From NCBI RefSeq assembly GCF_014897585.1, contig NZ_JABUXW010000005.1:124001-188000 (forward strand): a stretch of DNA of 64,000 nt. Reading direction: 5' to 3'. The DNA is from Brachybacterium tyrofermentans (lineage in GTDB: Bacteria; Actinomycetota; Actinomycetes; Actinomycetales; Dermabacteraceae). This document shows, piece after piece, positions 147 to 20,271 of the stretch. Made by a program: the position numbers and the translations under genes. The number at the start of each line of letters is the position of its first letter. Position 1 is the first letter of the stretch. A model generated the notes under the pieces. The model searched no databases. It was not told the DNA's origin and saw only the letters and a list, made by a program, of their open reading frames with translations.

Positions 147-3100
147 TCAGCTCGCAGGGTCCGCCCAGGGGCGCAGCGGGGAGACGGCGTCGATCCGGTC
201 GCGCCGCCAACCGTCCGGGCCTTGCACCATGTTGGAGGCCAGCGGGATCTGGTGCGAGGCGCTCTCCAGGATGTGCATGAGGTAGCCGGCGGTGTTGGGC
301 AGGGCCACGATGTCTCCTCGGTGGACCCCGTGTGGGAAGCGCAGACGTCGACGCTGGATCAGCTCCGCCTCGATGCAGTAGGCGCCCACCAGGAACGCGT
401 CCACCGGTTCCGATGTGCTCTGCGGCGGCACGGCGCCGGCGCGGACCAGCACCGGGTCCACGAGGAAGTCATCCGAGGTGGATCGGCACTGGGTGCGGTT
501 CATCTCGAGCCCGACCAGCGGGATCCCGTCGCTCGTGGAGGTGCGCTGGACGACTCGGGCCAGGGTCATGCCGCAGCCGTCGAGCATCGAGCGCCCGGGC
601 TCGCAGCGCAGCTCCAGGCCGCGCTCGCGCAGGGCGTCGGCGGCCGTGGTCCCCGGGTCCACCTCGGCGGCGAGGAAGGTGGTCAGCCACTGGCCGCGCA
701 CCACGTCCTGGTGATACGGATACACCTGTCGCAGCGGTTCCCCGCGCCAGGTCAGCGAGCTATCCGCTGTGCCGGTCCGGTCCTCGTGCGCGCTCCAGAA
801 GGTGGCCCATTCCTCGGGGTCGTCGAGGTAGGACATGGGGATCCCACCCCCGATGTCGATGAACCGAGGTCGGTGACCGAGCGCACGCAGGGCATCGACC
901 AGGCCGACCGCCTCGGCGAGGGCATGGGCGCGGGCGAGGGGGTCGTAGCCGTGCAGGTGGAAGTGAATGCCGTCGAGGCGCAGAGCGTCCTGGACGGGGT
1001 CGCGGGACTGGGCCCACTCGCGCCAGGTGCGCGCGGATTCTCCGAACCGGGTGGGGCCGACGGTCTCGCTCGGCGTGGGCGCGAGCCGCAGGGCGACGGG
1101 CCGACGGGTGGGGGCCGGGACGGAGCTGGGCGAGGCGAGCAGGGCGTCGACCGCGGCGGCCTCGTCGAGGTTGTCCAGCACCAGCATCGCCCCGGAGGTC
1201 AGTGCCAGGCGCAGCAGCGGGGCCGGTTTGATGGCCGCCGTGACCACGATGTCCTGTGCCGGGACACCGAGTTCGAGGGCCTGCTCCAGTTCGCGCTCGC
1301 TGCCCATGTCGAGCCCGAGCCCGGCGTTCTGCGCCGCCGTCATCAGACCGAGGGTCTTGTTCGCCTTGCGCGCCACGAAGATGCGCAGGTCGACGCCCTG
1401 TTCTGCGGCGGCGTCCGACAGCTCGGAGGCATTGCGGGGCAGCGCCGAGAAGTCGTGCACGTTCAGCGGGCTGCCGTGATCCTCGAGCAGGTCGCGGCAG
1501 GCGACGGGATCGGCGAGGAGCTCGCGCATCCACGGCTCCAGGCGCGCGGTCAGCGGAGGCAGGCCCTGGCAGCCGGACCGGAGATCCGCATCGTCGGGAA
1601 CGTCGGGGACGTCGGGTCGTTGCAGGCTGGGACGGCGCGGGCTGGGACGGCGTGCGCCGAGAAGTCGAGCGCCGAGGCGGCGAGCCCAGAGCCCCGGCTC
1701 GGCATGCAGATGGCGGTTGAGGGTGTCGTGGCCGATCACGTGGTCCTCCGTCGGCCGGCCCAGGAGCGCCAGTCCCTCGACGCGACTCCCGTCGGGCGCG
1801 ATCGCGGTGGCGTCGGGGTCGATGACCGCGCCGCGACGGCCGGGACGCACCGACACCAGGCCCGTCTCCAGCAGGTGTCGCGCCAGCGGATCGGAGACGC
1901 CGACCAGGCCAGGAGGGGGCTGGACCGCATCGACCACGACATCGGCCGAGGCAGAGCCGGCGGGCAGGCCCTGGATCCCCTGCGCGGTGATCGTGGTGCC
2001 GGCGTCGACCCAGGACAGGTCCACCGCGCCGGAGTCGACCATCGCGAGCAGCTCGCGCGCGGTGTCCAGGGGCGGCCCGAAGGCGAAGCGGTCCAGCACC
2101 AGCTCGGCCTCCCGGAACCGGGACCAGGCCGTCTCGTCGACCGTGCAGTCTCGCAGCGCCGCGGTGATCTGGGGATACATCAGCACCCAGGCGCGGCCGA
2201 GGGCCCAGCTGGGCCCTGGCTTCCGGCTGCCCTCGGCGACGGCCACGCTGCGACGCAGCGCCTCCGCGGCGCGTCCTGGCCCGGAGGGCAGCTCGGGATC
2301 GGAGCCCTCGCCGAGCGTGCGGCGCACGGCGAGGGCTGGCGCCGAGCCGGTGTCGACATCGACATCGACATCGACATCGGAATCGACATCGTCGAGCAAC
2401 CGAGCGGCGACGCCCAGCACGATCTCGAGCACCTGATCCGGGGTCAGGGAGCCGGAGAGGGAGGTCTCGTACGCCAGCTGGCGTCGGCCCTCCTCGATCG
2501 CCGCCTCAGCAGCGTCGGGCAGGGCGGTTCCCGGATCGGGCTTCGCCTCCAGGAGCAGGCCGTGGCGGGTGGTGGGGAGGATCGCAGACGGCTCCTCGGG
2601 ACTGCGCTCGTGGAGCAGCCGCCCGGATCCGGCGGAATCGGGGTGGAAGCGGGCGCCGCGGCCGACGGTGAGCGTGAGGGCAGCATCGATGAAGGTCAGG
2701 GCCCCACCCCGCACAGCCACCCGGGACCCGGGTGGCACGTGAGCCGCCGCGAGCATGGTCCCGACCGGCAGGACGGCGGGGCGCAGCGGCAGCCCAGCAG
2801 ACCACCGGCCTGAGGCCCGCGCGGTCGCCAGGGAGCTGTCGTGCCCCGCCGCGTGGCCGGTCGCCACGAGCACCTCGTCGGCGGGAATCTCGCCAGCCGG
2901 AGCTGCGGGGGTCTCAGCTGCGTCGGCCGGCGCGAGCGGCGCCGAGCCCTCCCCTCGCGAGACCAGCCATCCGTCGGCGTCCCGATGGACGGCGACGGCG
3001 CGGTCGCGGAGCAGGCGGACAGTCCCGAACGGGGCGAGGGACTCCAGCATCCGCTGCCAGCGCTCGGTCAGATAGCGGCCGACGACGGCGCGCGGCGGGT

Positions 3101-3434
3101 ACGGCTCCTCGGCCAGCTCCGGATGCTCCCGCGCCGCCCAGTCCGGGAAGGATGCGAAGGCGCCGGCAGCCGGGGCATCGAGGATCCCGGAGCCGACGTT
3201 CAGCCGCAGCTCGGGAGGCTGGGAGAGGTCGTAGGCGGCTCCGGTGCCGGGATGCTCGCCGGGGTCGAGGACAGTGATCTCCAGGAGCTCTCGCGGGGAG
3301 CCGGCCCCAGGGCGCCCGACGGGTTCCGGGTGACCGACCAGCAGCGCGGCGAGCTCCTCGAGGGCGAACAGGGCCTTGGGGCCGGCCCCGATCACGACCA
3401 GGCGCAGGGGCGCTCCGGGGGCGCGCTCAGCCAC
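147..3434 (-). CDS. FAD/NAD(P)-binding and Y4yA-type PLP decarboxylase fusion protein
   Basis: A 1095-residue two-part protein. Residues 1 to about 600 begin with a Rossmann motif (VVIGAGPKALFAL, near 13-25) and resemble FAD/NAD(P)-binding proteins of the PF13454 type. Residues from about 625 form a fold-III PLP enzyme of the ornithine/DAP decarboxylase group: the PLP lysine is in FVARKANKT (about K689), followed by FHLHGYD, DIGGGIPMSY and GAYCIEAEL. The latter is most like Y4yA-family enzymes. The GTG start at 3434 overlaps the SbnA-like gene's stop by 8 bases, so translation is probably coupled. Longer upstream starts would read through the neighbour. A hexanucleotide repeat near residues 350-361 gives an Asp-Val run. 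The likely role is oxidation plus decarboxylation of an amino-acid-derived building block, perhaps of a metallophore; the substrate is unknown. Confidence 0.75.
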   Translation of the reverse strand: MAERAPGAPLRLVVIGAGPKALFALEELAALLVGHPEPVGRPGAGSPRELLEITVLDPGEHPGTGAAYDLSQPPELRLNVGSGILDAPAAGAFASFPDWAAREHPELAEEPYPPRAVVGRYLTERWQRMLESLAPFGTVRLLRDRAVAVHRDADGWLVSRGEGSAPLAPADAAETPAAPAGEIPADEVLVATGHAAGHDSSLATARASGRWSAGLPLRPAVLPVGTMLAAAHVPPGSRVAVRGGALTFIDAALTLTVGRGARFHPDSAGSGRLLHERSPEEPSAILPTTRHGLLLEAKPDPGTALPDAAEAAIEEGRRQLAYETSLSGSLTPDQVLEIVLGVAARLLDDVDSDVDVDVDVDTGSAPALAVRRTLGEGSDPELPSGPGRAAEALRRSVAVAEGSRKPGPSWALGRAWVLMYPQITAALRDCTVDETAWSRFREAELVLDRFAFGPPLDTARELLAMVDSGAVDLSWVDAGTTITAQGIQGLPAGSASADVVVDAVQPPPGLVGVSDPLARHLLETGLVSVRPGRRGAVIDPDATAIAPDGSRVEGLALLGRPTEDHVIGHDTLNRHLHAEPGLWARRLGARLLGARRPSPRRPSLQRPDVPDVPDDADLRSGCQGLPPLTARLEPWMRELLADPVACRDLLEDHGSPLNVHDFSALPRNASELSDAAAEQGVDLRIFVARKANKTLGLMTAAQNAGLGLDMGSERELEQALELGVPAQDIVVTAAIKPAPLLRLALTSGAMLVLDNLDEAAAVDALLASPSSVPAPTRRPVALRLAPTPSETVGPTRFGESARTWREWAQSRDPVQDALRLDGIHFHLHGYDPLARAHALAEAVGLVDALRALGHRPRFIDIGGGIPMSYLDDPEEWATFWSAHEDRTGTADSSLTWRGEPLRQVYPYHQDVVRGQWLTTFLAAEVDPGTTAADALRERGLELRCEPGRSMLDGCGMTLARVVQRTSTSDGIPLVGLEMNRTQCRSTSDDFLVDPVLVRAGAVPPQSTSEPVDAFLVGAYCIEAELIQRRRLRFPHGVHRGDIVALPNTAGYLMHILESASHQIPLASNMVQGPDGWRRDRIDAVSPLRPWADPAS
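2350..2391 (-). repeat. GACATC-type hexanucleotide repeat inside the fusion gene
   Basis: About seven near-perfect 6-base units (one altered) encode alternating Asp-Val residues in the N-terminal half of the fusion protein. Because the unit is a multiple of three, copy-number change lengthens or shortens an acidic loop without shifting frame. Confidence 0.8.
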
Positions 3435-4503
3435 GCGCGGCAGTGGCCAGCAGGGACGAGGTCGCTGCGGCCAGGGCGTCGGCATCGGCGTCGAGGGTCT
3501 GCTGGACCCAGGCATCGTCGTAGACGGTCTCGAGATAGGGCACTCCGCCATCGTGCACGATGAATGCGAGCCGTGTGCCGGGTTCCAGTCGGGGGACGAG
3601 CGTGCCCAGCGCGTGGACGATCCCGCCCGTGGAGGCACCGGCGAGGATCCCTTCGCGGCGGGCGAGCAGTCGCGCGCCGACCACGCAGTCCGCACCGCTC
3701 ACGCGCACCACCTGGTCCGGCTCGACGGTGCGGGAGATGTCGGTGACCACGCCCGCCCCGAGGCCCGGCAGGGGGCGCGGGGCGGCGGTGCCGCCGAACA
3801 GGACGCTGCCCACGGCGTCGACCGCGATCGTGCGGGTCGCCATGCCGGAGTCGTGGATGTAGGCGGTGCAGCCGGCGATGGTGCCGGTGGTGCTCACGGC
3901 GGCCATCAGCGCGTCGAGCCGGTGGTCGGTGGCCTCGGCGATCTCGCGCATGGTGCCTGCTGCGTGGGCGCCGGGGTTCGCCGGGTTGCCGTACTGGAAC
4001 AGGTTCACCGCGCCGGGGATCTGCTCCAGGAGCTGCTCGACCCGGCGGAACCGGGCCGTGAGCAGGTCGCCGGTCTCGGGATCCGGTTCGGAGACCAGGG
4101 AGATCTCCCCGCCGAGTGCGCGGATGGTGGCCACGGTGGTGGTGTTGGTACGGGAGTCGACCACGCACACGAAGCGCACGCCGTGCGCGGTGCACACGCG
4201 CGCCAGGGCCACTCCGAGGTTGCCGGAGCTGGATTCGACGACCGTGCCGCCGGCGGAGAGGCGGCCGCTCGCGATCGCGTCGCGCACCATCGCGAGCGCC
4301 GGGCGGTCCTTGGTGCTGCCGCCGGGATTCACGGATTCCAGCTTGGCGAGGATCTCGACGCCCGAGTCGGGGAACAGGTGGTCGAGACGGATCAGCGGGG
4401 TGCGGCCCACGGCGGCGGAGACGCCGACGGTGATGCCGGGGGCGACAGCGCCGGGCGTGCCGAGGCCGGGATCCTGGGCGGACTGCGCGAGGTGTGTGGT
4501 CAC
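3427..4503 (-). CDS. SbnA-like cysteine synthase family PLP enzyme
   Basis: A 358-residue fold-II PLP enzyme. The PLP lysine is K65 in NPGGSTKDRPAL, followed by the substrate-binding ESSSGNLG loop and the phosphate-binding VSTTGTIAG loop. The order and spacing match cysteine synthase and SbnA, which in staphyloferrin B synthesis joins O-phosphoserine and glutamate on the way to 2,3-diaminopropionate. Pairing an SbnA-like enzyme with a PLP decarboxylase also occurs in staphyloferrin loci (SbnA/SbnH), so the 8-base overlap with the fusion gene suggests a joint pathway. I chose GTG at 4503: a TANNNT box (TATTTT, 4511-4516) lies 7 bases before it, as in leaderless actinobacterial mRNAs, and homology starts soon after. 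A plain cysteine synthase role is less likely given the partner. Confidence 0.75.
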   Translation of the reverse strand: MTTHLAQSAQDPGLGTPGAVAPGITVGVSAAVGRTPLIRLDHLFPDSGVEILAKLESVNPGGSTKDRPALAMVRDAIASGRLSAGGTVVESSSGNLGVALARVCTAHGVRFVCVVDSRTNTTTVATIRALGGEISLVSEPDPETGDLLTARFRRVEQLLEQIPGAVNLFQYGNPANPGAHAAGTMREIAEATDHRLDALMAAVSTTGTIAGCTAYIHDSGMATRTIAVDAVGSVLFGGTAAPRPLPGLGAGVVTDISRTVEPDQVVRVSGADCVVGARLLARREGILAGASTGGIVHALGTLVPRLEPGTRLAFIVHDGGVPYLETVYDDAWVQQTLDADADALAAATSSLLATAARG

Positions 4504-4765
4504 GTTCGTCAAAATACGGCACTGCGGGGCCCGTGCCGAGGGTCGTTCCGACCTTCCCCGGTACCACCGCGCGTGGTGGTCGAAGGGCCAGGGGCGTGCT
4601 AGCAGGAAATCGTCGCAGGCGGGATGGGCGCGCGCAGGATGCCGGTGCGTCGGAGACCCGTGCGACCAGGCCCGTATCGGTACCGAACGGTCGGGTCCGT
4701 ACCCGGGATCGGAGGGTGCGAGTACCGTCGGCCGGGACAGCACCGGCGACGCGGGAGGACCCCTC
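4504..4765. promoter_or_regulatory. Divergent intergenic region with -10 box and inverted repeat
   Basis: This gap separates the SbnA-like operon (-) from the PPOX gene (+). On the minus strand TATTTT (4511-4516) sits 7 bases before the GTG start. An inverted repeat ACCACC-N6-GGTGGT lies at 4563-4580, about 60 bases upstream of that start, where an operator could act. No IdeR- or Zur-like box was seen. An AGGAGG-like ribosome site (gggagg, 4753-4758) precedes the PPOX start. Confidence 0.45.
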
Positions 4766-5248
4766 ATGACCGACGACACCCTGGCCCTGGAGGACGTGGT
4801 GGACACGCTCCGCGACGCCGACCTCGTCATGCTCACCACGGCGCTCCCGGGCGGCAAGCTCCTGTCTCACCCCCTGTCCATCCAGGGCGTGACCGACGAC
4901 GCGGACGTCTGGTTCTTCGTCGGACTGCGCGGCGGCCAGGCCGAGGCGCTGCGCAGCGGACCGCAGGTGAACCTCTCGATCTCGCAGGCAGGGTCGTGGC
5001 TGTCGGTCGCGGGACATGCCGAGTTCGTCGAGGACCGCTCTCTGGTGGAACAGCTGTGGACCAAGCGGGCGGCCGCCTACTTCCCCGACGGTCCGGACGA
5101 CCCGGACCTGGGGCTGCTGCGGGTCAGCGGCGAATCCGCGCAGTTCTGGGGCCTGCCCGGGGGCAAGGCCGCTGGGCTCGCGCAGATCCTCAAGGCGAAG
5201 GTGGTCGGGGAGCGCCCACCCGGTGGCACCGCCACCACCGAGCTCTGA
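4766..5248 (+). CDS. PPOX-family (general stress protein 26-like) flavin-binding protein
   Basis: A 160-residue soluble protein of the pyridoxamine 5'-phosphate oxidase-like split-barrel fold. The N-terminal helix (TLALEDVVDTL) is followed by strands typical of general stress protein 26 relatives: ADLVMLTT, KLLSHPLSIQ, DVWFFVG, then PQVNLSIS, SWLSVAGHAEFV and a late FWGLPGGKAAG segment. Members bind FMN, F420 or heme and often act in stress or redox housekeeping; which cofactor is used here cannot be told. The ATG at 4766 has a strong GGGAGG site 7-8 bases upstream, so longer in-frame openings are not needed. It stands alone, divergent from the SbnA-like operon and convergent with the next gene. 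Confidence 0.8.
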   Translation: MTDDTLALEDVVDTLRDADLVMLTTALPGGKLLSHPLSIQGVTDDADVWFFVGLRGGQAEALRSGPQVNLSISQAGSWLSVAGHAEFVEDRSLVEQLWTKRAAAYFPDGPDDPDLGLLRVSGESAQFWGLPGGKAAGLAQILKAKVVGERPPGGTATTEL

Positions 5249-5274
5249 GCGCGGACGCCGCGGGTCACCCGGGG

Positions 5275-6228
5275 TCAGCGGAGTGCGTCGCGCCGGGTCT
5301 TCAGCCAGCCGTCGAGGATGTCCCACACCGGGATGCCCACGAGCATGAACCACGTCAGGATTCCGAGGACCCGCATCGAGTCCGGCTCGACGCCGTTGTC
5401 GATGAACACCGTCTGGAGGAAGTCGGGGTTCAGCAGGAGTCCGTTGCCCAGCAACGTGAGCACCAGAGTCATGGCCAGCATGGCGAGCACGGTGTTGAGC
5501 ACTGCGAGCCGCACGGTCCAACGACCGTTCGCAGAGAGCATGACGGCCAGGACCGCCTCGAGGGCGATCAGGGCGAGCAGGCCGGCCATCGCCCAGGGCC
5601 ACAGCCCGGGGTTCAGGATCGACAGCGACTCCCCGTCGATCCTGAGGAAGCCGATGAAGTGGTCCCACAGGAGGGCGACCACGCCGGCCGCGGCCAGGAT
5701 GAGGGAGGCGATGAGGTCCGCCCGGCCCGTCCCCGTCGAGGTCGGCTCGCGCAGTTGATCCACGTCCCAGCCGGGGCCGGTGTCCGCGCCGGCACGCTCG
5801 AGGAGCACGAACACCAGCGTCACCCAGAAGACCAGATGCACCGTGGCGGTGACCCCCACGCCGATCGCCTGCCCGATGATCGCGCCGATCGAGGCGCCGG
5901 CGATCACCTGTGCGAGGGCGACTGCGAGGACAGCGCACACCGGCACGATCATCAGCAGGGTCCTCAGCAGCTGCCTCCAGGCGAGGTAGTAGCGGGGGCC
6001 CAGCAGGTGCAGCGGACGGTCGGCATAGCCCGCTGCGAGGGCGGCGGGGTCACCCAGCTCGGTGAGCACCTCGCGTTCGGCCGACGTCGGCTCCTCGCCC
6101 TGGTCGAGGCGAGCTTCCATGGCGTCCGCGATGGAGCCCTCGAGCTCTGCGCGCACGTCGTCCTGCGCGTCCGGCGGGAGGGAGGTGATGGTGGCGCTGA
6201 TATAGCGCTCGGTGAGTGAGGTGGCCAT
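5275..6228 (-). CDS. HAAS-type membrane protein, PadR partner
   Basis: A 317-residue integral membrane protein. Residues 1-80 form a cytosolic helical domain (LTERYISATITSL, DVRAELEGSIADAM, LTELGDPAALAAGYADRP) of the kind called HAAS or permease-prefix domain, found next to PadR regulators. About six to seven hydrophobic segments follow, from LLRTLLMIVPVCAVLAVALA to the end. The start at 6228 leaves one base between the upstream padR stop and this ATG, so the two genes form one transcript. The pairing suggests a PadR-controlled envelope-response module. No transported substrate is visible. Confidence 0.7.
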   Translation of the reverse strand: MATSLTERYISATITSLPPDAQDDVRAELEGSIADAMEARLDQGEEPTSAEREVLTELGDPAALAAGYADRPLHLLGPRYYLAWRQLLRTLLMIVPVCAVLAVALAQVIAGASIGAIIGQAIGVGVTATVHLVFWVTLVFVLLERAGADTGPGWDVDQLREPTSTGTGRADLIASLILAAAGVVALLWDHFIGFLRIDGESLSILNPGLWPWAMAGLLALIALEAVLAVMLSANGRWTVRLAVLNTVLAMLAMTLVLTLLGNGLLLNPDFLQTVFIDNGVEPDSMRVLGILTWFMLVGIPVWDILDGWLKTRRDALR

Positions 6229-6229
6229 G

Positions 6230-6577
6230 TCAGTTCTCCTCCGGGGTGCCCGGGTCATCGGTGACGGATGCGATCGATCGCGTGAGGTCGTGCCATTCCG
6301 TGCTGAGGGTGTCGGCCAGGCTCATGCCCTCCGCCGAGGTGACGTAGAACTTGCGGGGCCGTGTGTCCTCGGTGTTCCACTCGCTGGTCAGGAAGCCCTG
6401 TTTCTCGAGCCGACGCAGCAGGGGGTAGAGCGTGTTCGCGTCCGTGAGGACACCGTGCGCCGCGAGCTGCTCGAGCAGGTTGTAGCCGTAGCCGGGGGTG
6501 CGCAGCAGCTGCAGGCATGCGAGCACGACGGTGCCGCGTCTCAGCTCCTGCAGGTGGGTGTCGAAGGACTCGCTCAT
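6230..6577 (-). CDS. PadR family transcriptional regulator
   Basis: A 115-residue winged-helix repressor. The sequence shows the PadR pattern: a leading helix (LQELRRGTVVLACLQLL), GYNLLEQLAAHG, then TLYPLLRRLEKQGFLTSEW and the wing RKFYVTSAEG, ending in a short dimerisation helix (LSTEWHDLTRSI). It belongs to the short (subfamily 2) PadR group. It likely represses its own two-gene operon: a long palindrome immediately precedes its start codon. The ligand is unknown. The start is fixed by the palindrome and by the family's usual N-terminus. Confidence 0.9.
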   Translation of the reverse strand: MSESFDTHLQELRRGTVVLACLQLLRTPGYGYNLLEQLAAHGVLTDANTLYPLLRRLEKQGFLTSEWNTEDTRPRKFYVTSAEGMSLADTLSTEWHDLTRSIASVTDDPGTPEEN

Positions 6578-6602
6578 GTCTCACACCATAGTGTGTGAGA
6601 CA
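6577..6602. promoter_or_regulatory. 26-bp palindromic PadR operator with upstream -10 box
   Basis: TGTCTCACAC-N6-GTGTGAGACA is a perfect inverted repeat with 10-base arms that begins at the padR start codon. On the minus strand TATATA (6611-6616) lies just upstream, so a bound repressor would sit on the transcription start. PadR proteins often bind long palindromes containing ATAC/GTAT or ACAC/GTGT cores. Confidence 0.7.
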
Positions 6603-6637
6603 CAGTGTTGTATATAGCGCGGTCGCGCGAGGGGTGG

Positions 6638-7366
6638 TCAGTCGGGTCTGCGCGCGCTGAAGCGTCGCTGCAGCTGCGGGGAGTGGCCGGGGGCGACGCC
6701 GTGGGCACGATCCAGCTCGAGCACCTCGGTCAGGGGATCGGCGCGCACGTCCGCGAAACCGGCCGCCTCCCACTCGGCGATGATCTGCTCGGTGCCGGCG
6801 CGTCCGAAGGACAGGCGCTCGAAGGCCTCCGCGTCGTAGGCCGACGCGAAGTGGTCCTGCCGCTCGGTCCCGCGCGGCAGCTCCTCCTCGCCCCGGAACC
6901 AGGCGGCGTCGACCGCCACGAGCACCCCGCCGGGGCGCAGCAGCTCGTACCAGCGGGACAGCGCCGCGGGGGCATCGCGCAGCGTCCACAGCAGGTACCG
7001 CGAGACGATCGCGTCGAAGGTGCTCGGGGCGAAGGGCGGATCCACGGCGTCCCCGACCAGGAACGTCGGCGGATTCGGATGGTCCGCGCACTTGGCGTGC
7101 GCCTGCTCGAGCATGCCCGTGGCCAGGTCGATCCCGGTCACCGTGTGGCCCGAGCCCGCGAGCAGCAGGGCCATATTCCCGCTGCCGGTTCCTGCATCGA
7201 GGATCGTGGACGCCCCCGTCGGGAGCACCTCGGTCCAGACCCGGGACCAGGTCTCACGTTCCTCGGGGTGGGCGAGGCGGCACAGCTGGTGCTCGTCGTA
7301 CTCGGCCGCGTATCGGGTCCAGTAGTCGTTCCAGCGGGCCTGGGCGGGGTCGGCGGTGGGCGTCAA
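6638..7366 (-). CDS. Class I SAM-dependent methyltransferase
   Basis: A 242-residue methyltransferase. Motif I is ILDAGTGSGNMALLL (55-69), motif II contains VTGIDLATGMLEQA, and the later VGDAVDPPFAPSTFDAIVSRY and LRPGGVLVAVD segments complete the Rossmann fold. It starts with TTG at 7366, which has GAGGAG 7-8 bases upstream (7374-7379). The start lies inside the coding region of the upstream ABC ATPase, giving a 113-base overlap, so it is probably co-translated with the importer. Methyltransferases beside FecCD importers recur in actinobacteria. A role in modifying the imported ligand is an inference; the substrate is unknown. Confidence 0.8.
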   Translation of the reverse strand: MTPTADPAQARWNDYWTRYAAEYDEHQLCRLAHPEERETWSRVWTEVLPTGASTILDAGTGSGNMALLLAGSGHTVTGIDLATGMLEQAHAKCADHPNPPTFLVGDAVDPPFAPSTFDAIVSRYLLWTLRDAPAALSRWYELLRPGGVLVAVDAAWFRGEEELPRGTERQDHFASAYDAEAFERLSFGRAGTEQIIAEWEAAGFADVRADPLTEVLELDRAHGVAPGHSPQLQRRFSARRPD

Positions 7367-8294
7367 CGTCGGGCTCCTCGGGGGTGGAGGCGGTGGGGAA
7401 GAGGGGGCTGGCGGGTGCGCCGGGTGCGCCGGGTGCGCCGGGTGCGGCAGGTGCGGCCGACGGGCCGGGTGCGGCAGGGCCGGGGGGCGGCTCCTGCCCG
7501 CGGAACAGGAACTGCGCGGTGCCGTCGTCGGCCGTGGCCCGTTCGGCGGCGACCCCGTAGGTGGCGCTGACCAGGGAGGCGGGCAGTGCCTCGCCGGGCG
7601 GGCCCGCGGAGTGCACGAGGCCGTCGGCCAGCACGATGACCCGATCGCAGTAGCGGGCGGCGAGGTTCAGGTCGTGCAGCACCACGATGGTCGCCACGCC
7701 CTTGGTGCGCACGATCTGCAGCACGTGGTGCTGGGAGCCGATGTCGAGATGGTTGGTGGGTTCGTCCATGAGCAGCAGATGCGGTCGTTGGGCGAGCGCC
7801 CGCGCGATCAGCACCCGCTGCTTCTCCCCACCGGAAAGAAGCCCGAACTCCCGCCGGGCCAGGTGCAGGGCGCCGGAGTCCTCGAGCGCCCGGGTCGCGA
7901 TCTGCAGGTCCGCATCGGACGTCGAACCGAAGGTGCTGGAGTGGGGGACGCGGCCCAGCAGCACCACGTCCGCCACGGTCAGCGGCACCTCGCCCGTGAT
8001 CTCCTGGGCCATCACGGCGATGCGTCGTGCCCGCTCGCGCCCGGAGTAGCCGCCCAGCTCGCGGCCTCCGAGCAGCACCGACCCGGCGTCGGGCACGAGC
8101 TCGCGGTGCAGGATTCGCAGGGCGGTGGTCTTGCCGCTGCCGTTGGGGCCCACGAGGCCGACGATCTCGCCGGCCGACACCGACAGGTCCACCCCGCGCA
8201 GCACGGGCTCGGTCCCGAAGGTGTGCGTGAGGCCGCGGGCCTCGAGGATCGGCGGGGCCTGCGATGCATCGGGAACGCCGGCCGCCGACGTCAT
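7254..8294 (-). CDS. FecE/BtuD-type ABC importer ATPase with long Pro-rich tail
   Basis: A 346-residue ATP-binding subunit. Walker A is GPNGSGKT (49-56), the signature LSGGEKQRV begins near 153, Walker B is LLLMDEPT (173-180), and the switch histidine follows in VVLHDLN. The ATPase core ends near residue 265. The last 80 residues are a Pro/Ala/Arg-rich extension (repeated GAP triplets encoded by a 9-base tandem repeat) that overlaps the methyltransferase gene. Typical family members end near 260, so the tail is odd and may be disordered. The start overlaps the binding-protein stop as ATGA. It energises uptake of a metal complex, heme or corrinoid. Confidence 0.85.
   Translation of the reverse strand: MTSAAGVPDASQAPPILEARGLTHTFGTEPVLRGVDLSVSAGEIVGLVGPNGSGKTTALRILHRELVPDAGSVLLGGRELGGYSGRERARRIAVMAQEITGEVPLTVADVVLLGRVPHSSTFGSTSDADLQIATRALEDSGALHLARREFGLLSGGEKQRVLIARALAQRPHLLLMDEPTNHLDIGSQHHVLQIVRTKGVATIVVLHDLNLAARYCDRVIVLADGLVHSAGPPGEALPASLVSATYGVAAERATADDGTAQFLFRGQEPPPGPAAPGPSAAPAAPGAPGAPGAPASPLFPTASTPEEPDVDAHRRPRPGPLERLLDPIRGRVRRAPAVPPRPPRGT
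7413..7457 (-). repeat. 9-bp tandem repeat in ATPase tail
   Basis: Five units of nine bases (consensus gggtgcgcc on the plus strand, the last two altered) encode Gly-Ala-Pro triplets in the ATPase tail. The unit preserves reading frame. It ends about 45 bases before the region shared with the methyltransferase gene. Confidence 0.8.
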
Positions 8295-9331
8295 CCCTCG
8301 ATCTCGAGCAGCCACTCGTGGATCCTCTCCAGCCCGTCCACGACCAGCGGGGACGCCGGTTCGGCGAAGTTGAACAGCAGGGGCAGCACGGCCTGGTCCC
8401 GCACCGCGCGCAGCCCGGTCAGCTGATCCTGGGCGGTCATCTCCGCGGTGACGTCGCTGCCGTCGCCCTCTCCCTGGTAGAGCACGATCAGCACGTCCGG
8501 GTCGGCGGCCAGCAGCGGCTCCGAGCTGATCTCGAACACCCTCTCGGCGGTGTCGGCGAAGACGTTCTCGATACCGAGCGCATCGAGCTGCGCGGTGACC
8601 ATCGAGCCCGCGCCGTAGGTGTACAGCGGACCGCCGCCGAGCGAGGGGTAGAGCACCGCGGCCGTCGTGGCGCGGAGGGTCTGGGCGGATTCGGAGACGA
8701 CGGCGACGCGGTCCGTCAGCGCAGCCGTGAGGTCCTCCGCCTCCTGCGCGTGGTCGAAGATGCGGCCGTAGGTGGCGATCGTGGAGTACAGGGTCTCGAA
8801 GCTCGCCCGCTCGTCGTCCGTGCCGCAGTAGATGTCCTGGACCACCACCTGCGCGCCGGCGTCGGCCATCGCCTCGCGGGTCACGCCGTCGGGCAGGCCG
8901 AACACGATGTCCGGCGTCTGGGCGATCACCATCTCCTGGGAGATCTGCAGGTGGCCCGAGGCGTCGATGTCGTCCGAGAGCGTCGGGATCTCCTCGACCC
9001 GGGCGTCGAGCTCCTCGTCGTAGTACCCCGGGGGGAACACCCCGGCCCGGGCGACGACCCGGTCCAGCACCCCGATCCCGTCCAGCGTGGTCACGGGCGC
9101 GGATTCCAGCAGCACGATCCGCTGCGGCGGGGCGTCGAAGGTCAGCGTGGCCTCGCAGTTGGCGAGCTCGAGCGGGAAGCCGGCGGCTCCCTCTGAGCCG
9201 GACGTCGAGCCGCCGGCGGTCCCCGAGCTGCAGGCCGTCGCGCTGATCCCGAGGATTCCGGCGAGCCCTGCGAGCGCCGAGCGGCGGCTGAGGGTGCCGG
9301 CGGACGGACGGCGGGCGGCGGACAGATCCAT
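8291..9331 (-). CDS. FecB/BtuF-type ABC importer substrate-binding lipoprotein
   Basis: A 346-residue secreted binding protein. The signal region has a twin-arginine-like SRRSALAGLAG and a lipobox ending at Cys34 (ISATAC), so it should be a membrane-anchored lipoprotein. The mature part has the helical-backbone binding fold of class III proteins: PQRIVLLESAPVTTLDGIGV, then ETVIAQTPDIVF-like and DPDVLIVLYQG segments. It overlaps the ATPase start by ATGA and follows the permease after 44 bases. The ATG at 9331 has AGAAAGAGG upstream. The ligand is a metal chelate, heme or corrinoid; the neighbouring His-rich ArsR regulator favours a metal-linked ligand. Confidence 0.85.
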   Translation of the reverse strand: MDLSAARRPSAGTLSRRSALAGLAGILGISATACSSGTAGGSTSGSEGAAGFPLELANCEATLTFDAPPQRIVLLESAPVTTLDGIGVLDRVVARAGVFPPGYYDEELDARVEEIPTLSDDIDASGHLQISQEMVIAQTPDIVFGLPDGVTREAMADAGAQVVVQDIYCGTDDERASFETLYSTIATYGRIFDHAQEAEDLTAALTDRVAVVSESAQTLRATTAAVLYPSLGGGPLYTYGAGSMVTAQLDALGIENVFADTAERVFEISSEPLLAADPDVLIVLYQGEGDGSDVTAEMTAQDQLTGLRAVRDQAVLPLLFNFAEPASPLVVDGLERIHEWLLEIEG

Positions 9332-9375
9332 GGGGACCTCTTTCTGGGGCGGGGGAGAGGGATGGAGTGGGGCGC

Positions 9376-10479
9376 TCAGTGCTGTCGGGCGTACATCCGG
9401 CGCACGAGGATCAGCAGGAACGGTGCGCCGATCGCCGCGGTGATCACCCCGATGGGCAGCTCGCGGGGCTGCATGACGATGCGGGCGGTGGCGTCGGCCC
9501 AGAGCAGGAACAGCGAGCCCAGCAGGGCGCTCGCCGGGATCAGCACCCGGTGCCGGGCGCCGACCAGGCGGCGGGCGAGGTGCGGGATCACGAGGCCGAC
9601 GAAACCGATCGAGCCGGCCCCGGCGACCGCCGCCGCGGTGCACAGCGAGACCACGATCAGGAAGCCGATGCGGGCACGGTCCGGGGAGATGCCCAGGCCG
9701 TGGGCGATCTCGTCGCCTGCGCTGAGGGCGTCCAGCACCCGCGCCCCCAGCAGCATGATGAGCGTGCCGATCCCGGCGGCGAGCACCGCGATCAGCAGGA
9801 AGGCGTTCCAGCGTGCGAGGGACAGCGAGCCCAGCATCCAGAACATCACCGAGCGCGACCCCTCGGCGGAGTCCGAGGAGAAGATCAGCAGGTTGGTCAC
9901 GGCCGTGAGCGCGTAGCCGACGGCGACCCCGGACAGCAGCAGGCGCAGCGAGGTCACCCGCCCGCCGGCCCGCGCGATCGCGAACACCAGCAGGGCCGCG
10001 CCGAGGGCCCCGACGAAGGCGAGCACCGACTGCGCGTACTCGCCCATCGCCGCGCCCACACCGAAGAGGATCGCGGCCGCCGCTCCGGTCGAGGCGCCGC
10101 CGGAGACGCCGAGGATGTACGGGTCGGCGAGCATGTTGCGCACCATCGCCTGCAGGGCGGCGCCGCTGATCGCGAGGCAGGCGCCGACGGCGGCTCCCAT
10201 GAGGGCCCGGGGCAGGCGCACGGTCCAGATGATCGCCTCGGTGGCCGAGTCCGCGGCGGATCCCGTGGCCGGAGCGGGAGTCAGCCCGAGGTGCTGGGCG
10301 ATGACCTGCGCGGTGGTGCCGGGGGCGATGGGGACCGGGCCGATGCCCAGGCAGATCAGCAGGCTGAGCAGGGTGGCCGCGGCGAGCAGAAGGAGCACCA
10401 GGGCGGAGCGCCGGGCGCGGGAGCGCACGCCGAGCGGGTCGGTGAGGTCGGGACGACGGGCGCCGGTCGTGGTCGCCAT
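9376..10479 (-). CDS. FecCD-family ABC importer permease
   Basis: A 367-residue permease with about nine to ten membrane helices. Family signatures are visible: RLPRALMGAAVGACLAISGAALQ, NMLADPYILGVSGGAS, GDEIAHGLGI (the cytoplasmic coupling loop) and GFVGLVIPHLARRLVG. It is the first gene of the permease, binding protein, ATPase, methyltransferase operon. A single permease gene is present, so it presumably acts as a homodimer like BtuC. The ArsR-type inverted repeat at 10518-10539 lies 39-60 bases upstream of its start. Confidence 0.88.
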   Translation of the reverse strand: MATTTGARRPDLTDPLGVRSRARRSALVLLLLAAATLLSLLICLGIGPVPIAPGTTAQVIAQHLGLTPAPATGSAADSATEAIIWTVRLPRALMGAAVGACLAISGAALQAMVRNMLADPYILGVSGGASTGAAAAILFGVGAAMGEYAQSVLAFVGALGAALLVFAIARAGGRVTSLRLLLSGVAVGYALTAVTNLLIFSSDSAEGSRSVMFWMLGSLSLARWNAFLLIAVLAAGIGTLIMLLGARVLDALSAGDEIAHGLGISPDRARIGFLIVVSLCTAAAVAGAGSIGFVGLVIPHLARRLVGARHRVLIPASALLGSLFLLWADATARIVMQPRELPIGVITAAIGAPFLLILVRRMYARQH

Positions 10480-17043: not shown

Positions 17044-17928
17044 TCAGCTCCGCAGGGCGATCCAGATCAGCAGCTGGGTGAGCAGGAACCCGGTGAGCAG
17101 GTTCAGGCCCAGGAACCGCCGCCAGCCGGGACGGGCGCGGTCGCCGTGCTCGTCGGACAGCGAGCGGTACGGCCAGATGCTCGCGATGTAGGGGATGACC
17201 AGGAGTCCTGCCAGCAGTGCGGGCCATCCGGCGGCGAGCATGAGGAGCCCGGCGGCGGTGTACAGGGCCAGCGAGAGGCGAACCGTCGTGCGCGCCCCGA
17301 GCACGGTGGCGATCGATCCGATCCCGGCCTCGCGGTCGGGCACGATGTCCTGCACGGCGCCGAAGGCGTGCGAGGCCATGCCCCACAGGAAGAACGCGGC
17401 CAGCGCCGCGAGGGCGGCGAGGGTGAGCGGTGCGCCGGACAGGGCCAGGCCCACGGCGGCGGGGCCCACGAAATGCGTCGACGAGGTGAGCGAGTCCAGC
17501 ACCGGACGCTCCTTGAGACGCAGCCCCGGCGCGGAGTACCCGACCACCGCTGCCAGCACCACCAGGAGCACGAGGGCGGAGGCCAGGGAGCCGAGCAGCA
17601 GGAGCGCGATGACGAAGGGCAGGGCGAGCAGCCCGGCGGACCACAGGGTGAGCCTGTGCCAGCGGCGGTCCAGCACGATCCCCTCGACGCCGCCCTTGCG
17701 GGGGTTGCGCAGGTCCGATTCGTGGTCGAAGACGTCGTTGACGCCGTACATGAGCAGGTTGTAGGGCACGAGGAAGAAGGCCGTGCCGAGCACGAGCGCG
17801 ACGGTGAGGCCGCCGCCGGCCAGCAGGTAAGCCGCCGCGAACGGATAGGCGGTGTTGATCCAGCTCAGCGGGCGGGAGGAGCCCACCAGCTGGCGGACTG
17901 CACCGGGGGCATCGGTGGTCGTGGTCAT
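17044..17928 (-). CDS. crtEb: UbiA-family lycopene elongase (CrtEb-like prenyltransferase)
   Basis: A 294-residue membrane prenyltransferase. The first Asp-rich motif is NDVFDHESDLRNPRK (residues about 64-78) and the second is QDIVPDREAGIGSIATVLG. Both bind Mg-diphosphate as in UbiA enzymes. It is the last gene of the carotenoid operon and overlaps crtYf by ATGA. In Corynebacterium and Micrococcus the corresponding gene adds dimethylallyl units to lycopene to give a C50 precursor (flavuxanthin). I assign the same role by order and family. About eight helices are visible. Confidence 0.85.
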   Translation of the reverse strand: MTTTTDAPGAVRQLVGSSRPLSWINTAYPFAAAYLLAGGGLTVALVLGTAFFLVPYNLLMYGVNDVFDHESDLRNPRKGGVEGIVLDRRWHRLTLWSAGLLALPFVIALLLLGSLASALVLLVVLAAVVGYSAPGLRLKERPVLDSLTSSTHFVGPAAVGLALSGAPLTLAALAALAAFFLWGMASHAFGAVQDIVPDREAGIGSIATVLGARTTVRLSLALYTAAGLLMLAAGWPALLAGLLVIPYIASIWPYRSLSDEHGDRARPGWRRFLGLNLLTGFLLTQLLIWIALRS

Positions 17929-18236
17929 CGGTCCTTCTCGAGGGGGTTCAGCAGCAGGGCGAGCGAGGGCAGCAGCAGTCCGGCGGCGAGCGGCCAGGCG
18001 AGGTCCTCCACCGGGACCAGCGCGATCCGCAGCCCGCTCAGCTGGGACTCGTCGTACCGGAACAGGTCCGCCGCGATCATCGCGGAGTCGAACACGATCG
18101 TGAGGAGCAGCAGCCCGACGACGGTCCCGGCGGTCACCGCCCACCAGCGTGGTCCGGGCCGACGCACCACGGCGGCGAGCGCCGTCACCAGCACCGGGGG
18201 CAGGAGGAAGAGGGCGGCGAGCAGGGCGTAGGTCAT
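17925..18236 (-). CDS. crtYf: C50 carotenoid cyclase subunit (lycopene cyclase domain, CrtYf-like)
   Basis: A 103-residue protein with three membrane helices and the lycopene cyclase domain pattern: VVGLLLLTIVFDSAMIAADLFRYDE, then VPVEDLAWPLAAGLLLPSL. It starts at 18236 with an ATGA overlap with crtYe and its stop overlaps the crtEb start. CrtYe and CrtYf form a heterodimer that closes the rings of the C50 chain. Whether the ring is epsilon, beta or gamma cannot be read from sequence here. Confidence 0.8.
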   Translation of the reverse strand: MTYALLAALFLLPPVLVTALAAVVRRPGPRWWAVTAGTVVGLLLLTIVFDSAMIAADLFRYDESQLSGLRIALVPVEDLAWPLAAGLLLPSLALLLNPLEKDR

Positions 18237-18583
18237 CCCGCCCTCCTCCGGCTCTCTCTCCTCCGGGGCATCGCGCGGGCGAGCAGCCCCCACAGCACGA
18301 GCGTCGTGTAGGCGAGGAAGCTGACGAACACGAGCTCCTCGAGGGGCAGATCGGGCAGGAGCTCGATGCCGGTCATCGCCGGGCTCTGACCGGTGCGGTA
18401 GTGGCCGGAGGCGATCGCGGCGAGATCCCACAGCAGGAAGAAGACGATCCCGATTCCGAGGGTGAGCACGAGGGCCCGGGCGGAGCTCCGCGGCGTGCTC
18501 CACAGGACGAGGCGGAAGCGACGGTCCAGCAGCACCATGCATCCCGAGGGGACCAGCAGCGCGGCGAGGTACAGCCCGGCCAT
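18233..18583 (-). CDS. crtYe: C50 carotenoid cyclase subunit (CrtYe-like)
   Basis: A 116-residue, three-helix partner of the preceding-type cyclase. Diagnostic pieces are IGIVFFLLWDLAAIASGHYRT and LPDLPLEELVFVSFLAYTTLVLW, whose PLEE motif is the hallmark of heterodimeric bacterial lycopene cyclases. The ATG at 18583 shares one base with the crtI stop (TGATG), and the stop overlaps the crtYf start (ATGA). It is meant to act with CrtYf in the membrane. Confidence 0.82.
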   Translation of the reverse strand: MAGLYLAALLVPSGCMVLLDRRFRLVLWSTPRSSARALVLTLGIGIVFFLLWDLAAIASGHYRTGQSPAMTGIELLPDLPLEELVFVSFLAYTTLVLWGLLARAMPRRRESRRRAG

Positions 18584-20271
18584 CAGGCGTCGACCCCGCT
18601 GCTCGTGGCCGTCCGCGCAGCAGGTTCGGGCAGCGGCGCGGAGGAGCGGTCGCCCCGCAGCCTCTTCGCGATGAGCTCCGCGCTGATCAGGCACATCGGC
18701 AGGCCGATGCCGGGCAGAGTGCTGGAGCCCGCGTACAGCAGCCCGGTCACCCGGCGGGAGGCGTTGCCGGCGCGGAAGAAGGCGCTCTGCCGCAGGGTGT
18801 GGGCCGGGCCGAGCATGCTGCCCCGCCAGGCTCCGAGATCCTCGGCGAACTCGGCCGGACCGACCGTGCGGCGCACCACGATGCGCTCGGCGAGGTCGGG
18901 GACCCCGGCCTGCTCGGCGATCCGGGCGATCGCCTCGTCGGCGATGCGCTCGACGGCGGGGGAGCCGGTCCCGTCCTCGCCGCCGTGACCCAGCGACGGG
19001 TCCGACGGCACGGGGACCAGCACGAACAGGTTCTCGTGACCGGGCGGGGCGACCGACGGATCGGTCGCCGAGGGTCGGCACACGTAGGACGAGGCCGGGG
19101 AGGGGACGCGTCCCTCGCGGATCGCCCCGAAGTTCTCGTGCCAGTCGCGCGTGAAGAGCAGGGTGTGGTGCTGCAGCTGCGGCAGCTCGCCCCGCACGCC
19201 GAGCAGCACCAGCACGGCGCCGGGGCCGCTCGTGCGCCGCCGCCACCACGATTCCGGATAGGTCTGCAGCGGGCGCGGCAGCAGAGCGGTCTCCACGTGA
19301 TGGAGGTCCGCGGTGGCGACGACGACATCGGCGCGCAGGGTGCGGTGGTCCCCGTCGGCCGTTCGCACCTCGACTCCCTGCACCTCGGGTCTCCGGAGCC
19401 TCTGGGGGTGCCGGAGCGCCCCGGGTCCCTGGGCCCGGGTTCCGCGCTCGGCGGCGCTCGGAGCGGTGAGGATCCGCGTGGCGCGGGTGCCGGTGTGCAG
19501 GCGCACGCCCTCGCGCTCGGCGAGACGGACGACGGCATCGATCAGCGTGGCGAAGCCGCCCTGCGGATACTGCACCCCACCCGTCAGGTCCAGGGCGCTC
19601 ATCAGGTGGTACATGCTCGGGGTGCGGTCCGGCGAGGAGCCGAGGAACACCGCCGGATAGCCGAGCACCTGGCGCAGCCTCGGATCCCGGAAGCGCCGGG
19701 CGACGAACCGCTCGAGGGGCTCGGCGAGCAGCGCCAGCAGCCGGGGTGCCCGGGTGATCACGGCCGGGTCCAGGAATCCTCGCAGCGAGGTGAAGGACGT
19801 ATACAGGAAGTGCTTCAGCGCCAGGTCGTAGGTGTTCCCGGCGGAGTCGAGGTACTCCGCGAGCCGGCGTCCTGCGCCGGGTTCGATCTTCTCGAAGGCG
19901 TCGGCATTGCGGGCGGCGGAGGCGTGGAGGTCCAGCGGCTCCTCGTATCCCTCGAAGAGCACGCGGTAGCCCGGGTCCAGGGGGCGCAGGTCCAGCTGCT
20001 CGGCGGACGATGTGCCGAGGAGGCGGAAGAAGTGGTCGAAGACCTCGGGCATCAGGTACCAGGAGGGGCCGGTGTCGAAGCGGAAGCCGTCGCGCTCCCA
20101 CGAGCCGGCGCGGCCGCCGAGCTCCTCGCGCGCCTCGACCAGGTCCACCTGGTAGCCGTCGCGGGCCAGCAGGGCGGCGGTCGCGAGTCCGGAGATCCCG
20201 CCGCCGATGACGACCGCTGTGCGGGGGTCGGAAGCGCTGGCGATGGAGGGGCGAGTCTCGGAGGCGCTCAT
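18583..20271 (-). CDS. crtI: Phytoene desaturase (CrtI)
   Basis: A 562-residue FAD enzyme that turns phytoene into lycopene. The dinucleotide-binding motif AVVIGGGISGLATAALLA begins near residue 19, followed by VDLVEAREELGGRAGSW and DGFRFDTGPSWYLMPEVF. The C-terminal FAD loop is NASRRVTGLLYAGSSTLPGIGLPMCLISAELIAKRL-like, split here into GLLYAGSSTLPGIGLP and CLISAELIAKRL. The protein is longer than most by a loop around residues 275-310 (SAAERGTRAQGPGALRHPQR). It overlaps crtB by ATGA. Confidence 0.93.
   Translation of the reverse strand: MSASETRPSIASASDPRTAVVIGGGISGLATAALLARDGYQVDLVEAREELGGRAGSWERDGFRFDTGPSWYLMPEVFDHFFRLLGTSSAEQLDLRPLDPGYRVLFEGYEEPLDLHASAARNADAFEKIEPGAGRRLAEYLDSAGNTYDLALKHFLYTSFTSLRGFLDPAVITRAPRLLALLAEPLERFVARRFRDPRLRQVLGYPAVFLGSSPDRTPSMYHLMSALDLTGGVQYPQGGFATLIDAVVRLAEREGVRLHTGTRATRILTAPSAAERGTRAQGPGALRHPQRLRRPEVQGVEVRTADGDHRTLRADVVVATADLHHVETALLPRPLQTYPESWWRRRTSGPGAVLVLLGVRGELPQLQHHTLLFTRDWHENFGAIREGRVPSPASSYVCRPSATDPSVAPPGHENLFVLVPVPSDPSLGHGGEDGTGSPAVERIADEAIARIAEQAGVPDLAERIVVRRTVGPAEFAEDLGAWRGSMLGPAHTLRQSAFFRAGNASRRVTGLLYAGSSTLPGIGLPMCLISAELIAKRLRGDRSSAPLPEPAARTATSSGVDA

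Follow-up and report, generated by a model that had tools for sequence, protein, structure and literature searches.

We propose, with a confidence that falls just short of even, that two coupled genes of Brachybacterium tyrofermentans form a stand-alone three-enzyme biosynthetic cassette leading to a small N-oxygenated, decarboxylated diaminopropionate-type compound. The genes lie in a 64,000-nucleotide stretch of contig C76 (positions 124001-188000, hereafter the window) of a genome of 4.61 Mb in 108 contigs, and coordinates are those of the window unless a contig is named. One gene encodes an SbnA-like pyridoxal phosphate (PLP) enzyme (3427..4503, minus strand) and the other a 1095-residue fusion of a flavin-dependent N-oxygenase with a PLP decarboxylase (147..3434, minus strand). 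These enzyme classes are supported by sequence comparison and structural models, and we infer from them that O-phosphoserine and glutamate would be the substrates and that their condensation product would be N-oxygenated and decarboxylated with channelling of the intermediate.

The two genes and their products

The fusion is read from a GTG at 3434 to position 147, within a longer open frame of 1182 codons counted from the first GTG. The stop codon of the SbnA-like gene (TGA, 3429-3427) falls within the opening bases of the fusion, GTGGCTGA, which gives an 8-base overlap (3427..3434). In the fusion Pfam recognizes NAD_binding_9 (E 7.2e-23, residues 13-164) and Orn_Arg_deC_N (E 1.2e-20, residues 682-875), and in the partner gene PALP. 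All on the minus strand, the N-terminal half, a flavin adenine dinucleotide (FAD)/NADPH N-oxygenase of the FzmM (aspartate N-hydroxylase) family, occupies 1650..3434, a linker 1563..1649, and the C-terminal half, a Y4yA-type fold-III PLP decarboxylase, 147..1562. The initial annotation had described a single 1095-residue protein uniting an FAD/NAD(P)-binding half with a Y4yA-type half and translationally coupled to an SbnA-like gene, and this description holds, as one minus-strand frame carries both Pfam domains and the overlap is seen in the sequence. Its SbnA-like and Y4yA-type assignments agree with PALP, TIGR03945, Orn_Arg_deC_N and the fold comparison, and its idea that the oxidoreductase half adds a step is supported at the level of the flavoenzyme class.

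The FAD half resembles FzmM well beyond any other protein compared. Its model (mean pLDDT 91.5) retrieved FzmM with Foldseek at E 1.5e-29, the next protein or family standing at 2e-9; structural alignment with VIA-align gave Z 29.0 over 530 residues, followed by YpdA (19.2) and PvdA (18.2); and a profile search gave E 1.3e-51 against 2.3e-4 for the next match. The three-domain class-B flavoprotein fold with its helical substrate domain is thus present over the 530 aligned residues. FzmM is the aspartate N-hydroxylase of Streptomyces sp. V2, and its structure is described as placing Asn62 over the flavin and as having an entry chamber rich in arginines (PMC10404684). We set the equivalents of its residues by hand through the profile alignment, in 56 rows of which 55 come from 74 loci of a named-genome collection (described below), FAD loci of low coverage or containing stops (including L108, L117 and L134) being omitted. 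The flavin-facing Asn62 is Asn in all 56 rows, Arg13 is Arg or Lys in all 56, Arg266 is Lys in all 56, Arg577 is Arg in 54 and Arg409 is Arg in 37. The entry-chamber residues Arg412, Asn413 and Arg416 are not kept, the window having Tyr420, Pro421 and Thr424 and only one of the 56 rows having Arg at the last place.

That FzmM is the closest solved relative would fit a plain aspartate N-hydroxylase giving nitrosuccinate or nitrite, as in the aspartate-nitrosuccinate pathway. We consider this very unlikely, because those three chamber residues are replaced and because the two plasmid cassettes that come with annotation (Sulfitobacter and Tsukamurella) show no nitrous-acid-releasing lyase next to them, the other loci not having been searched for one. 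Compared with the FzmM/CreE aspartate N-hydroxylases of fosfazinomycin and cremeomycin, the FAD half has the same full-length fold, flavin/NADPH core, Asn62 and Arg577, with Arg266 as Lys, whereas its entry chamber is altered, its neighbours are an SbnA-type enzyme and a PLP decarboxylase, and it is fused to the latter. The kept catalytic core and the partly changed aspartate pocket suggest an N-oxygenase of the FzmM family acting on another, probably still acidic, substrate.

The same genome encodes three more relatives of the FzmM family, unfused in appearance, on contigs C24, C51 and C9 (L169, L170 and L171; E 3e-45, 2e-38 and 3e-22).

The SbnA-like partner probably performs a beta-replacement, with O-phosphoserine and L-glutamate as its likely substrates. 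Its best solved relative is SbnA (5d84, E 3.9e-64), on which residue numbers were counted, and the equivalents of SbnA Lys47, Arg132, Tyr152 and Ser185 are retained in 66 of 66 cassette proteins, the window included. We take Arg132, Tyr152 and Ser185 to be functional residues that set specificity. Position 185 is Gly in all seven SbnA-like proteins examined from ornithine cyclodeaminase (OCD)-type clusters, pNGR234a and a Ti plasmid, Tyr being kept in two of them, and two SbnA-like proteins from those other cluster types score 235 and 230 bits with TIGR03945, far under its curated cut-off of 349.95. As Tyr152 and Ser185 are kept in the cassette, and elsewhere Gly185 goes with low TIGR03945 scores, the cassette enzyme probably carries out genuine SbnA chemistry as the first step.

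The Y4yA half (pLDDT 89.7) is modelled with the fold of the fold-III PLP decarboxylases, that is, the alanine-racemase-fold decarboxylases, and its PLP-site motifs are invariant in 47 rows. Its top match among decarboxylases is a diaminopimelate decarboxylase (Z 29.9). The initial annotation had singled out SbnH as the structure to compare, but the SbnH structures ranked only 42nd, 45th and 46th among the decarboxylases (Z about 26), and we dropped SbnH as a special relative.

Recurrence of the cassette and of the fusion

The grouping pointed out in the initial annotation was found again in other genomes. A family search covered 47 genomes, 38 of them of the same genus, and both halves were strongly matched in 16 genus members besides B. 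tyrofermentans, with the SbnA gene alongside; the FAD match of one genus member (G005) has two internal stops. In the named-genome collection, counted by locus and not by genome, 74 loci encode the FAD half, at least 10 of them belonging to the same Brachybacterium strains as in the family search. According to tblastn, which was used for all partner counts, Y4yA lies within 3.5 kb downstream of the FAD half in 68 of the 74 loci and SbnA adjoins in 67; in L078, L079, L096, L112 and L122 one partner is absent and the locus ends at a contig edge. The trio of SbnA, N-oxygenase and Y4yA decarboxylase recurs in three phyla, including Planctomycetota (L085, L099), and is found on plasmids of Sulfitobacter and Tsukamurella, with differing neighbours. 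The FAD half was nevertheless detected in only 5 of 396 sampled genomes of the phylum, our own included and with the top candidates per genome scored, so the cassette is uncommon.

Because all 16 other genus members with the cassette have the two halves as separate frames, the fusion in the window could be suspected of being a sequencing or assembly error, as the initial annotation had allowed. However, the FAD half and Y4yA share one open frame in 31 of the 68 named loci and are split in the other 37, the fused ones being 28 of the 37 Corynebacterium loci plus Kocuria palustris, a Micropruina and Propioniciclava. In a tree of 54 decarboxylase halves, 18 of them fused (built by a quick method; pNGR234a outgroup and 11 fused Corynebacterium near-duplicates omitted), explaining the fused state takes 7 changes, supported branches forcing 6 of them at the least, and the window is nested within split Brachybacterium rows. 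At the position of the linker, the first frame of relatives ends in a stop, followed by intergenic sequence and an ATG. Compared with four relatives that have this ATG, the window is without the intergenic sequence and without a start codon between the halves, and the shortfall in length exceeds a small indel. An error is therefore extremely improbable and we discarded it; judged from the recurrent fused loci and the forced changes, the fusion is natural and recurrent. Both this recurrence and the conservation of the trio are supported by sequence and models.

The initial annotation had also named separate, unlinked halves as a case that would count against a joint role. The halves are indeed separate in 37 of the 68 loci, but they are not unlinked, as they remain neighbours there, and the link stands.

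Proposed pathway

In the first step, as suggested by the specificity residues, the SbnA-type enzyme would join O-phosphoserine and L-glutamate into N-(1-amino-1-carboxy-2-ethyl)-glutamate (ACEGA). In the second, the FzmM-family flavoenzyme, whose class comes from the model and the profile search, would oxygenate one of the nitrogens of ACEGA, its presumed substrate, with NADPH and O2 as cosubstrates. In a variant of this step the secondary amine would be oxidised to a nitrone that is hydrolysed to 2-oxoglutarate and N3-hydroxy-2,3-diaminopropionate, a route by which the flavoenzyme would stand in for the NAD-dependent SbnB. In the third, the Y4yA half would take off an alpha-carboxylate of a presumed intermediate. 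The cassette would thereby yield a small N-oxygenated derivative of ethylenediamine or diaminopropionate, with neither a non-ribosomal peptide synthetase (NRPS) nor an NRPS-independent siderophore (NIS) synthetase involved. The data are compatible with either order of the second and third steps, and the repeated fusion of the two enzymes involved would fit the hand-over of a labile N-oxygenated intermediate.

Several observations weigh against this proposal. The SbnA-like enzyme barely reaches the TIGR03945 cut-off, its 350.4 bits exceeding it by just 0.45 bits. The FAD half is found without either partner in 4 of the 74 loci (L094, L115, L126 and L134), which suggests that it can act alone. 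In its entry chamber the equivalent of FzmM Arg412 is Tyr in 52 of the 56 rows, Asn413 is mostly Pro and Arg416 mostly Val, Ile or Thr; with the aspartate pocket kept in part only and the Arg276 equivalent not placeable, another redox reaction is possible.

Alternatively, the flavoenzyme might only oxidise ACEGA to 2,3-diaminopropionate and 2-oxoglutarate, leaving no oxygen on the nitrogen, after which Y4yA would give ethylenediamine or decarboxylate a later intermediate. Such a role would provide the redox partner that an SbnA without SbnB needs, it agrees with the kept SbnA specificity residues, and in other clusters an OCD or an octopine dehydrogenase fills the third place. Nonetheless, both the FzmM-type architecture and the Asn facing the flavin, which never varies, speak for oxygenation, and we regard a purely oxidative role as quite unlikely.

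Returning to the N-oxygenating cassette, comparison with known systems helps to place it. The staphyloferrin B SbnA-SbnB module and other diaminopropionate pathways start with the same SbnA-type enzyme bearing Tyr152 and Ser185, but unlike in staphyloferrin B no SbnB-like or NIS genes stand beside the cassette. Diaminopropionate also enters the L-alanosine pathway, which includes AlnM, a homologue of CreE, although its substrate is carrier-protein-bound, it has a CreD-like lyase and a separate N-oxygenase, and no fusion is reported in the available portions of its descriptions (PMC11705231, PMC7347517). The pNGR234a cluster has the same Y4yA and SbnA-like neighbours, with an octopine-type dehydrogenase, IucA/IucC and a major facilitator superfamily (MFS) protein in place of the flavoenzyme, and a Ti plasmid carries OCD, Y4yA-like and SbnA-like genes. 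With an OCD, an opine dehydrogenase or an N-oxygenase as third enzyme, the SbnA-like and Y4yA enzymes are a reusable pair with a varying redox enzyme. In the openly licensed literature that was searched (subscription literature being outside its scope) the trio is not described, its parts being described separately.

More tentatively, and with doubts that outweigh our confidence, we suggest that the cassette is an undescribed, widely exchanged minimal pathway to a free, small N-oxygenated diamine or diaminopropionate product, in which the fusion would channel an unstable intermediate and a flavoenzyme with a substrate new to its family would replace SbnB by oxidative N-dealkylation. If so, three enzymes would be enough to turn glutamate and phosphoserine into an N-O-bonded small molecule, and would do so in hosts as diverse as Brachybacterium, Corynebacterium, Sulfitobacter and planctomycetes; the FzmM family would gain a new substrate, SbnA chemistry would be completed without SbnB, and a natural N-oxygenase-decarboxylase fusion would become usable in engineering.

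Regulation, transport and the metallophore question

The initial annotation had suggested that the gene pair might supply a new metallophore building block. One form of this would be an aminopolycarboxylate pathway like those for ethylenediaminedisuccinic acid (EDDS) and ethylenediaminesuccinic acid hydroxyarginine (EDHA), with the flavoenzyme replacing the OCD-type redox enzyme and the chelate returning through an ATP-binding cassette (ABC) importer. The available text on EDHA/EDDS gives four genes, AesA-D, with an iron response (PMC10702961). These clusters have the same SbnA-like and Y4yA pair and no NRPS or NIS synthetase, a likeness drawn through look-alike clusters and the gene names in that text. 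We found such look-alikes in the order OCD-Y4yA-SbnA-MATE in L163, L164, L165 and L167, with a TauD-type dioxygenase in front at L163, and in the order SbnA-OCD-Y4yA-MATE in L155 and L159. The shared pair thus favours a metallophore. In contrast, OCD and a MATE exporter take the place of the flavoenzyme in these clusters, SbnA residue 185 is Gly, and some of the clusters have DtxR-like boxes. Judged by eye, neither an OCD-type enzyme nor a MATE exporter is among the neighbours of the SbnA-like/Y4yA genes of the window, and the SbnA residues differ from those of the OCD-type clusters.

An EDDS-like cluster has been reported in C. striatum, to judge from the available part of that report (PMC10486106), and it may be this cassette, which is present in L119. 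L155 itself is on plasmid pMAH135 of Mycobacterium avium, where SbnA-like, ornithine cyclodeaminase, Y4yA and MATE genes follow one another at 4259-9750 in an EDDS/EDHA-like arrangement.

Metal-responsive promoters were sought with hand-written DtxR and Zur consensus patterns, scores being relative to those patterns. The regions in front of 67 named cassettes gave no DtxR- or Zur-like boxes beyond chance (in two loci a motif was found that 3 or fewer of 100 random stretches equalled), the best DtxR-like match in the first 26 kb of the window reached 11 of 19 positions, with no Zur- or DtxR-responsive promoter found in the window, and an alignment of six Brachybacterium upstream regions revealed no evident shared box. 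A scan of the genome placed no site of either kind on C76; its DtxR-like sites are on C11, C34, C38 and C62 and its Zur-like ones on C9, C21, C34 (four) and C60, a reversed control pattern giving one each. Among the six OCD-type clusters, DtxR-like boxes score 16 and 17 of 19 in L163 and L164, more weakly 14 and 13 in L165 and L167, and are missing in L155 and L159. As two of the six also have none, a missing box alone does not settle the metallophore question.

The FecBCD transporter near the cassette was considered as a candidate importer. Of the 9 cassette genomes that encode its binding protein, 7 do so within 20 kb of the cassette, and in two (L036, L051) FecCD, the substrate-binding protein (SBP) and FecE run head to tail with the cassette. 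Within the genus, however, 9 of 17 genomes with the cassette encode the binding protein, against 16 of the 21 that lack the cassette. In seven of those 16 cassette-free genomes, which we inspected, FecE-SBP-FecCD is present without the cassette, an XRE gene being kept on the same side in six of the seven and a thioredoxin-reductase-like gene also in six. The XRE gene is directly beside a DUF gene, a PPOX gene or FecE in L174, L175, L178 and L179, and the thioredoxin-reductase-like gene is beside the DUF gene in L173, small unrelated open reading frames (ORFs) intervening in L176 and L177. In the window, the PPOX-like gene (plus strand) and the DUF and PadR-type regulator genes (minus strand) lie between cassette and transporter at 4766-6577, a conserved neighbourhood shared with several cassette-free relatives. 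Since this neighbourhood is kept without the cassette, the cassette sits at a variable site in fixed surroundings and the transporter is a neighbour more than a partner; its independence from the cassette in this genus is supported by the gene contents compared, and FecBCD was rejected as a dedicated importer.

The statement that other pathway genes must lie to the left was not borne out. In the 20 kb left of the window, translations inspected by eye indicate an XRE-type regulator, an alcohol dehydrogenase, an MFS pump, a thioredoxin-reductase-like protein, a sugar ABC system and a glycosidase, and no synthetase gene was seen there (NRPS being judged by ORF size and eye only). The single IucA/IucC gene of the genome is on contig C38, away from the cassette. 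Transport genes of the ABC (L080, L082, L108, L127, L131), MFS (L080, L090) or HlyD-like (L089) kinds, which would favour a metallophore there, stand at some other loci, but 20 genes flanking the cassette elsewhere, searched with Pfam, gave no recurring partner. Weakened by the lack of a visible synthetase gene in the 20 kb to the left, the absence of boxes, the distribution of FecBCD and the persistence of its neighbourhood without the cassette, a metallophore pathway of the EDDS/EDHA kind now seems unlikely, and the early suspicion of a metal-scavenging system is probably wrong. If this is right, an SbnA-like/decarboxylase pair near a siderophore transporter need not denote a metallophore.

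Other gene clusters

Some neighbours were met singly, such as an aldehyde dehydrogenase in L085. In two Corynebacterium loci, L101 and L106, the gene directly in front of SbnA encodes a group-II PLP decarboxylase (PF00282 in L106, the same cluster in L101). Five loci of large-genome actinobacteria (L158, L160, L161, L162 and L166) have Y4yA-like genes with distant SbnA-like ones (about 440 amino acids), in most cases adjoined by a gene of some 400 codons and without OCD or MATE matches.

In B. tyrofermentans itself, the IucA/IucC cluster (L052, C38:148000-167999) is headed by a DtxR-like box scoring 16 of 19 and is likely an iron-regulated NIS siderophore cluster. Four of the seven genomic Zur-like sites fall within 25 kb at C34:10364-35147, near a distant second FecB-like protein at C34:37040, perhaps a zinc-uptake island. 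Finally, the window contains at 17044-20271 (minus strand) what appears by eye to be a carotenoid cluster, with a UbiA-type prenyltransferase, two small lycopene-cyclase-like genes and a phytoene-desaturase-like gene.

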